Shown here piece after piece: positions 13,079 to 42,957 of a stretch of 64,000 nt of DNA (position 1 is the first letter of the stretch; each line of letters starts with the position of its first letter). Source of the DNA: Azotobacter chroococcum. GTDB lineage: Bacteria > Pseudomonadota > Gammaproteobacteria > Pseudomonadales > Pseudomonadaceae. Location of the stretch: positions 124,001-188,000 of the forward strand of contig NZ_SMMU01000003.1 in assembly GCF_004339665.1 (NCBI RefSeq), read 5' to 3'. Under the pieces are notes generated by a model that saw only the letters and a program-made list of their open reading frames with translations, ran no database searches and had not been told where the DNA came from. A program made the translations under genes and the position numbers.

Positions 13079-13154
13079 TCCGCGATAGCTCAGTCGGTAG
13101 AGCAAATGACTGTTAATCATTGGGTCCCTGGTTCGAGTCCAGGTCGCGGAGCCA
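13079..13154 (+). tRNA. tRNA-Asn (anticodon GTT)
   Basis: This is a 76-base cloverleaf with acceptor arms TCCGCGA/TCGCGGA, anticodon loop CTGTTAA, T-arm with GTTCGAGTC, discriminator G and an encoded CCA end. Confidence 0.97.
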
Positions 13155-13163
13155 GCTTTCAGA

Positions 13164-13240
13164 CGGGGTATAGCGCAGTCCGGTAGCGCGCCTGCTTTGG
13201 GAGCAGGATGTCGGGAGTTCGAATCTCTCTACCCCGACCA
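13164..13240 (+). tRNA. tRNA-Pro (anticodon TGG)
   Basis: This is a 77-base cloverleaf with acceptor arms CGGGGTA/TACCCCG, anticodon loop CTTTGGGAG (TGG), T-loop GTTCGAATC and an encoded CCA. It begins 9 bases after tRNA-Asn. Confidence 0.97.
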
Positions 13241-13255
13241 TCTCTTCATGTGTTT

Positions 13256-13331
13256 GGGTCGTTAGCTCAGTCGGTAGAGCAGTTGGCTTTTAACCAATTG
13301 GTCGTAGGTTCGAATCCTACACGACCCACCA
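13256..13331 (+). tRNA. tRNA-Lys (anticodon TTT)
   Basis: This is a 76-base cloverleaf with acceptor arms GGGTCGT/ACGACCC, anticodon TTT in GGCTTTTAACC, T-loop GTTCGAATC and an encoded CCA. It is the last of the three-tRNA cluster; 243 bases with no gene follow before ndh. Confidence 0.97.
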
Positions 13332-39683: not shown

Positions 39684-41267
<1,584 letters not shown>

Positions 41268-41558: not shown

Positions 41559-41587
41559 TTGATCTTGACCCCCCATGGTCCTAAAGT
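41559..41587 (+). promoter_or_regulatory. Promoter of the speC leader/sRNA
   Basis: TTGATC (41559-41564) and TAAAGT (41582-41587) are spaced by exactly 17 bases. A start near 41594 would place the terminator at the end of an 89-base transcript. Confidence 0.6.
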
Positions 41588-41593
41588 TCGCGC

Positions 41594-41682
41594 CCGAACG
41601 TCCATGCTGGAAACGATCCATCCGGCTCAAGTACTGACGACGAGACAGCAAGGTCAACCCGTGTCCCCGGTTGACCTTTTTT
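41594..41682 (+). ncRNA. Predicted short transcript: speC leader attenuator or small RNA
   Basis: A terminator hairpin AAGGTCAACC (41650-41659) / GGTTGACCTT (41669-41678) with a 9-base loop and six T's ends at 41682, about 110 bases before the speC ATG on the same strand. No open frame lies between it and the preceding promoter. The transcript could therefore be an independent sRNA of about 89 bases, or a leader that regulates speC by read-through. I do not recognise a named RNA family. The 5' end is inferred from the promoter. Confidence 0.55.
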
Positions 41683-41793
41683 GCTTTCGGCGACATGCCT
41701 TGGGAAGTAGGCGAACCAAAGTGGGGAAACTGATCAGGCGTTCGTGTAACCCCTTTTTCCATCCTTTCCGCGTTTTGCCATTGGAGTCCGTGC

Positions 41794-42957
41794 ATGTCGA
41801 TCAAGATCGAAGACTACTACCCGCCCGCCACCTTCCAGCGCATGAAGGCCTTTGCCGACAAGCAGGAAACCCCCTTCGTGGTCATCGACACCGAAACCAT
41901 CGCCAACGCCTATGACGAGCTGGGCGACTGCTTCCCCTTCGCCCGCATCTACTACGCGGTGAAGGCCAACCCGGCGGTGGAGATCATCCGCCTGCTGCGC
42001 GACAAGGGCTCGAACTTCGACATCGCCTCGATCTACGAACTGGACAAGGTGCTGAACGAGGGTGTCGGCGCCGAGCGCATCAGCTACGGCAACACCATCA
42101 AGAAGTCCCGCGACATCCGCTACTTCTACGAGAAGGGCGTGCGCCTGTTCGCCACCGACTCCGAGGCCGACCTGCGCAACATCGCCAAGGCCGCGCCGGG
42201 CTCGCGGATCTACGTGCGCATCCTCTCCGAGGGTTCCACCACCGCCGACTGGCCGCTGTCGCGCAAGTTCGGCTGCCAGCCGGACATGGCCCTGGACCTG
42301 CTGATCCTCGCCCGCGAACTGGGCCTGGTGCCCTATGGCGTGTCCTTCCACGTCGGCTCGCAGCAGCGCGACATCGACGTCTGGGACGCGGTGATCGCCA
42401 AGGTCAAGGTGATCTTCGAGCGCCTCAGGGAAGAGGACGGCATCGAGCTGAAGATGATCAACATGGGCGGCGGCTTCCCGGCCAACTACATCACCAAGAC
42501 CAACAGCCTGGAAACCTACGCCGAGGAGATCATCCGCTTCCTCAAGGAAGACTTCGGCGACGAGCTGCCGGAGATCATCCTCGAGCCGGGCCGTTCGCTG
42601 ATCGCCAACGCCGGCATCCTGGTCAGCGAAGTGGTGCTGGTCTCGCGCAAGTCGCGCACCGCCGTGGAGCGCTGGGTGTACACCGACGTGGGCAAGTTCT
42701 CCGGGCTGATCGAGACCATGGACGAGGCCATCAAGTACCCGATCTGGACCGAGAAGAAGGGCGAGATGGAGGAGGTGGTGATCGCCGGGCCGACCTGCGA
42801 CAGCGCCGACATCATGTACGAGAACTACAAGTACGGCCTGCCGCTCAACCTGGCCAGCGGTGACCGCCTGTACTGGCTGTCCACCGGCGCCTACACCACC
42901 AGCTACAGCGCCGTGGAGTTCAACGGCTTCCCGCCGCTGAAGGCCTTCTACATATAA
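41794..42957 (+). CDS. speC: Ornithine decarboxylase (group IV, PLP-dependent)
   Basis: This fold-III decarboxylase makes putrescine from ornithine. The protein is 387 residues. The PLP lysine is Lys57 in YYAVKANP; glycine-rich phosphate-binding GGGFP lies near 224-228; EPGRSL near 263-268; and catalytic Cys335 in GPTCDSAD. The short length and Lys/Cys pattern match the eukaryote-like ODC of Pseudomonas SpeC; lysine specificity cannot be excluded. A terminated leader lies upstream, which may mean attenuation control. A terminator follows. Confidence 0.92.
   Translation: MSIKIEDYYPPATFQRMKAFADKQETPFVVIDTETIANAYDELGDCFPFARIYYAVKANPAVEIIRLLRDKGSNFDIASIYELDKVLNEGVGAERISYGNTIKKSRDIRYFYEKGVRLFATDSEADLRNIAKAAPGSRIYVRILSEGSTTADWPLSRKFGCQPDMALDLLILARELGLVPYGVSFHVGSQQRDIDVWDAVIAKVKVIFERLREEDGIELKMINMGGGFPANYITKTNSLETYAEEIIRFLKEDFGDELPEIILEPGRSLIANAGILVSEVVLVSRKSRTAVERWVYTDVGKFSGLIETMDEAIKYPIWTEKKGEMEEVVIAGPTCDSADIMYENYKYGLPLNLASGDRLYWLSTGAYTTSYSAVEFNGFPPLKAFYI

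Follow-up and report, generated by a model that had tools for sequence, protein, structure and literature searches.

A family-wide structured leader RNA, most likely a riboswitch, in the speC (ornithine decarboxylase) mRNA of the Pseudomonadaceae

Comparative analysis of the region upstream of speC, the ornithine decarboxylase gene, revealed that in the Pseudomonadaceae the mRNA of this gene begins with a structured RNA, which acts in cis, occurs family-wide and belongs to no family in the RNA libraries searched. This element is most likely a riboswitch. Its link to speC, the conservation of the sequence downstream of a hairpin initially taken for a terminator, and the natural loss of the arm bearing this hairpin together argue for a riboswitch-like RNA acting in cis, and against a free small RNA. 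More tentatively, we propose a new riboswitch class of the Pseudomonadaceae, with a core of approximately 77 nt, that may directly sense ornithine or one of the polyamines putrescine and spermidine and control the translation of ornithine decarboxylase; this narrower model is put forward as quite possible.

The analysed stretch of DNA (the window; 64,000 nucleotides) corresponds to positions 124,001–188,000 of the forward strand of contig NZ_SMMU01000003.1 (GCF_004339665.1) of Azotobacter chroococcum, and all positions given below are those of the window. The gene located downstream of the RNA is one which we take to be speC from its gene context; its product gave only sub-cut-off matches in NCBIfam, to related decarboxylases. 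It lies between prfC, carried by the other strand (39684–41267; above the NCBIfam cut-off), and a lactate-dehydrogenase-like gene. Ornithine decarboxylase catalyses the committed step to putrescine. The main features of the locus, as identified from the sequence and its comparison with relatives, are the following:

41559..41564, + strand: −35 box TTGATC (found in the sequence; among 152 distinct copies, 147 have their best −35 box at 17-bp spacing)
41582..41587, + strand: −10 box TAAAGT (found in the sequence), separated from the −35 box by a 17-base spacer
41596..41743, + strand: whole structured leader RNA, 148 nt (alignments A1 and A2, model R1, DNA search)
41783..41786, + strand: Shine-Dalgarno sequence GGAG of speC (found in the sequence)
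41794..42957, + strand: speC, ornithine decarboxylase (COG0019-type decarboxylase), an ORF starting with ATG

A DNA search with the segment 41550–41690 yielded a match, one per genome, in 389 of the 398 genomes of the Pseudomonadaceae (18 of the 19 genera), and the conserved block preceding speC is therefore not a product of chance. The records carrying the RNA include species of Pseudomonas, Stutzerimonas, Halopseudomonas and Azomonas. In eight of the nine family genomes without the RNA, speC was absent (at E ≤ 1e-40), while the ninth (G250) contains only a piece of the gene (residues 106–387), cut at the contig end and preceded on the contig by 2 bases, as derived from the locus length (2348 = 1500 + 846 + 2). 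The decarboxylase gene is the next one downstream in 149 of the 153 distinct RNAs, the other four being placed too near a contig end to be judged, and no copy away from speC was detected among the judged RNAs. The RNA thus travels with speC: genomes that lack the gene lack the RNA, and every RNA that could be judged is followed by the decarboxylase gene. The original prediction had proposed a regulatory leader tied to this gene, and the conservation check in relatives that keep speC, run within the family, did not refute this link.

The conserved unit spans the sequence from GAACG (41596) to CGUUC (41743), some 50 nt short of speC (median distance from helix P1 to the start codon of 53.5 nt, range 29–313, for 148 RNAs with start codons set by script). 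Eighty positions, counted from the list of such positions, are invariant across 43 aligned sequences. Alignments A1 and A2, and hence model R1, omit L044 (long insertion), L048, L063 and L064; L034 was not captured by the extraction pattern. In several relatives, P. delhiensis among them, the RNA carries very long insertions, most of them on arm P3 (L175, 7472–7720; L081, 1501–1677; L123, 1501–1669; and L044, in which the two arms of P3 are separated by an insert of about 140 nt).

Under stricter filters, with few candidates scored in each genome and distant relatives therefore liable to be missed, model R1 gave 18 matches in 390 genomes of the order, all of them in the Pseudomonadaceae (372 genomes were without a match, and the 20 of these listed include none of this family), and two matches in 369 genomes of the class, again both in the Pseudomonadaceae. 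In other families, the 23 speC loci examined gave no match at E values up to 10, and neither did phage records give a match. Among 80 listed stretches with the pattern of hairpin P2, 72 matched the whole model at E values below 1e-13; the remaining eight, from unrelated taxa or proteobacteria, matched at most the bare P2 pattern. P. delhiensis and P. jinjuensis are present among the matches listed, and P. aeruginosa itself is absent from them.

Other speC leaders were also noted in the order. In genus g44 of family f26, the speC leader bears a different, strongly conserved block of approximately 135–150 nt, which begins immediately behind a promoter (L095, 1349–1500; also L096, L098, L099 and L259–L268). 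Its DNA was matched in 10 of 244 genomes of the order, all of this genus, and it matched no Rfam family; it is a candidate for a second, separate speC leader RNA. In genus g38 (L091, L093, L094), a short hairpin followed by a T-run is located about 60–110 nt before speC, in the manner of a true terminator-like attenuator.

The promoter with 17-base spacing originally predicted at 41559–41587 is present in the sequence and proved to be conserved: a TAnnnT box is found 7–10 nt before the conserved GAACG in all 152 distinct copies with enough upstream sequence. This constant position suggests that transcription probably starts at or next to G41596, i.e. at the 5' arm of P1. A simple consensus scan of the window listed neither this promoter, which has too few consensus matches, nor the terminator, whose 9-base loop is too long under the rules of the scan. 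The scan being silent by its own limits, comparison with relatives must decide: by consensus matching alone, promoter and terminator are not more than chance, and it is conservation that lifts the promoter above this level. Between the −10 box and the predicted start, the window contains a G+C-rich stretch, TCGCGCCC (41588–41595), which is nearly fixed in relatives. Such a stretch in this position resembles promoters under stringent control.

Within the RNA, a closing helix (P1) encloses a hairpin (P2) and an arm (P3). The elements of the fold, including those that are proposed or alternative, are as follows:

41596..41602, + strand: 5' arm of P1, forming 7 pairs with 41737–41743
41737..41743, + strand: 3' arm of P1, pairing with 41596–41602
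41606..41626, + strand: hairpin P2 (GCUG/CGGC), in which 41606–41609 pair with 41623–41626, with ACGAUCCAU in the loop
41617..41621, + strand: 5' strand (UCCAU) of the proposed pseudoknot, with 41721–41725 (GUGGG) as its partner
41627..41631, + strand: 5' arm of P3a, pairing with 41699–41703
41699..41703, + strand: 3' arm of P3a, pairing with 41627–41631
41635..41643, + strand: 5' arm of P3b, pairing with 41687–41695 across two internal mismatches
41687..41695, + strand: 3' arm of P3b, pairing with 41635–41643
41650..41682, + strand: distal tip of P3, a 10-bp hairpin plus T6 (stems 41650–41659/41669–41678, T6 at 41677–41682)
41697..41712, + strand: alternative hairpin P4 (GCCU/AGGC) given by RNAalifold, mutually exclusive with P3a
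41714..41727, + strand: junction strand J3, AACCAAAGUGGGGA, the 3' side of the pseudoknot or a partner of the leader and Shine-Dalgarno region

Within this fold, 99.7% of cells are paired in 43 sequences and 99.6% in the 100 sequences of alignment A3, which was fitted to the structure of R1, so that its counts lean to that structure. Cells changed on both sides numbered 30 in A3 versus 7.1 in shuffles, and sliding of the partners reduced the paired fraction to 24–48%. This alignment contains 100 of at least 127 distinct RNAs (L065 stands for L001, and L196, L201 and L212 replace three others). Minimum free energies were only mildly below those of shuffles (mean z −1.58; 60 sequences).

Helix P1 is backed by compensatory changes. 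In the 153 distinct RNAs, for which the counts were taken from anchored ends, its pairs 1–7 are intact in 1068 of 1071 cells, and both partners have changed at pairs 3, 5, 6 and 7 (at three pairs in A3). The double changes include GAGCG..CGCUC for GAACG..CGUUC in two RNAs (A-U to G-C) and GAACA..UGUUC in three RNAs (G-C to A-U). Hairpin P2 and the pseudoknot are proposed from conservation and complementarity, neither of them being proven by covariation: the pairs of P2 do not vary in any of the 100 rows of A3, which precludes a covariation test, and those of the pseudoknot are kept in all of these rows, with a one-sided change from U-G to U-A in three. Within arm P3, 99.8% (P3a) and 98.7% (P3b) of the A3 cells are paired, with one both-sided change in each helix. 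RNAalifold alone prefers P4 over P3a. However, P4 is broken or gapped in six of the 100 rows of A3 and P3a in three, P3a is kept where P4 is broken or absent, and the short natural forms described below retain a P3-like stem; P3a is therefore favoured. A switch between the two is possible.

Conserved sequence and covarying structure thus occur together in the 5' leader of a single metabolic gene, which is the combination characteristic of riboswitches. An equally strict linkage to speC, and equal conservation, would also be expected if the conserved RNA were the binding site of a protein that senses polyamines, or the state of translation, and controls speC. In line with this rather unlikely reading, the speF leader of alphaproteobacteria did not measurably bind ornithine, putrescine or spermidine in one study (PMC1273637). 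However, some 80 invariant positions, a closed multi-helix fold and a proposed pseudoknot are probably more than most protein sites need, and the riboswitch reading is preferred.

The gap, and the hairpin with a T-run ending at 41682, 111 bases before the speC ATG (41794), are present in the sequence as originally described; the end that had been assigned to the structure at 41682 was not upheld, as the conserved unit extends to 41743. What had been taken for a terminator is the tip of arm P3, a variable part of a larger RNA. Regulated termination at this hairpin, halting transcription before speC, would account for the hairpin and T6 of A. chroococcum, and a T5 run is present in the P3 arm of 72 of the 149 full-length distinct forms. 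Nevertheless, such a run is lacking in the other 77 and in all four short forms, i.e. a G+C stem followed by a T-run is not conserved as an intrinsic terminator, and no alternative pairing partner of the hairpin was identified. Moreover, one clade keeps both the RNA and speC although the arm is deleted: in 13 genomes of the family (G284 and 12 others) the whole P3 arm is replaced by CUCA-AGUAC-UGAG, which gives a form of 77 nt that retains P1, P2 and the core. The model score of this form was also found, among the matches listed, in three named Pseudomonas isolates and a MAG; other short forms have 78 and 94 nt (L063, L064). In P. entomophila, the contig ends within the RNA, at model position 75.

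The natural loss of the arm with retention of speC argues against termination as the main function, and a regulated attenuator at this site is improbable. Long P3 arms, with or without the T-run, seem to represent tolerated variation, and partial termination at the hairpin is possible in species with the T-run, including A. chroococcum. Still less probable is the other function originally suggested, that of a free sRNA some 88 nt long that ends at 41682 and acts on other targets. The element does possess its own promoter and a terminator-like end, but in the aligned relatives the sequence past 41682 is as conserved as that 5' of it and pairs with the 5' end, and the RNA is lost together with speC. 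A terminated small RNA and an attenuator were accordingly both rejected as the main function, given the inconstant T-run, the deletion of the arm in a clade and the loss of the RNA with speC. A leader peptide acting like an arrest peptide, encoded by a 20-codon ORF at 41575–41637 (MVLKFAPERPCWKRSIRLKY), was dismissed as extremely improbable: although the frame is open in A. chroococcum and its DNA is conserved, the ORF would start before the predicted transcription start, relatives have CTG, GTA, CAG, TAC or TAA in place of its ATG, and their frame is disrupted by one-base indels. In enterobacteria, the arrest peptide SpeFL provides leader control of ornithine decarboxylase through a conserved peptide; the RNA described here likewise precedes an ornithine decarboxylase gene, but contains no conserved peptide.

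According to the riboswitch model, the near-invariant core (the P2 loop ACGAUCCAU and the junction AACCAAAGUGGGGA, joined by the pseudoknot) would bind a small molecule linked to the enzyme, the candidates being ornithine, putrescine, spermidine or a relative of these. With the ligand bound, the junction strand would be held in the pseudoknot; in the ligand-free RNA it would pair with the leader and the Shine-Dalgarno region, which would change the translation of speC. Either state may be the ON state.

Strand J3 has two possible partners, the P2 loop and the part of the leader that follows P1 and includes the Shine-Dalgarno side. Pairing was examined by folding without the pseudoknot in 138 RNAs (those with leaders of up to 140 nt, out of 148 of the 153 RNAs with a usable start), and reached 0.590 for J3 and the whole leader, versus 0.395 for shuffled sequences, and 0.293 versus 0.166 for J3 and the last 28 nt of the leader. 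Related sequences inflate p values, an effect which is reduced by clustering of the leaders; with one RNA for each of the 41 leader clusters, the respective values were 0.575 versus 0.423 (p=1.5e-5) and 0.307 versus 0.163 (p=6e-4). Pairing of five other segments was weaker or not raised: among them, only the 3' strand of P3a/P4 showed raised pairing on the last 28 nt (p=0.021), and the pairing of the 5' strand of P1 was below the shuffled level in the leader clusters. Plain duplex energies of J3 and the leader were no better than those of shuffles (mean z 0.16; 45 sequences). When the aptamer fold was locked in 130 RNAs with GGAG before a start, 13 of 38 clusters lost more than 0.2 in accessibility of the Shine-Dalgarno sequence and six gained in it, and shuffled leaders partly behaved likewise. 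Control of speC is likely to operate at the level of translation.

The original prediction had recognised no Rfam family, and this was borne out. At gathering thresholds, the whole window gave three hits, all of them tRNAs (three consecutive genes at 13079–13328) and none at the speC leader, and 20 loci with speC leaders matched no family; down to E 10, the window region gave only a weak unrelated hit (E 0.49) and the short form of the RNA no family of note. A survey of the open-access literature, with subscription papers and supplements outside its scope, did not turn up any description of the RNA. We know of no separate Rfam model for the spermidine variant of SAM-I, and the speC leader RNA differs from SAM-I and the spermidine riboswitch in that it matches no Rfam SAM family. 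The spermidine riboswitch of Gram-positive bacteria also has polyamine genes as its target, and is described as a SAM-I aptamer variant that acts by transcription termination (PMC10853860).

With the speF element (RF00518), the RNA shares its position as a structured leader before a COG0019-type ornithine decarboxylase, conservation beginning near the transcription start, and a large variable insertion on one stem (PMC1273637). However, no covariance match to RF00518 was obtained at gathering or up to E 10, the alphaproteobacteria are a different class, and the speF element is described as an insertion-bearing stem with an 80-nt bulged stem-loop after it (PMC1273637), in contrast to the P1-closed multi-branch fold observed here. 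The odc1 motif of alphaproteobacteria, a candidate riboswitch, is likewise an ornithine decarboxylase leader with a pseudoknot (PMC8632094). Compared by description, it is a single hairpin P1 holding the RBS, with twin UUG starts and an 11-codon uORF (PMC8632094), whereas speC starts with ATG, its leader RNA closes upstream of the RBS and there is no conserved uORF.

In other bacteria, the leader of the ornithine decarboxylase gene contains RNA elements of unrelated kinds (speF, odc1). The study of the spermidine riboswitch voices its authors' certainty that additional classes of polyamine riboswitch await discovery (PMC10853860). If the proposed ligand model is true, the speC leader RNA would represent a natural aptamer of the polyamine pathway that is unrelated to SAM-I. 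With a strict, compact and family-wide RNA and a natural form of only 77 nt, whether polyamine flux is sensed by RNA at speC becomes directly testable in tractable strains of Pseudomonas.
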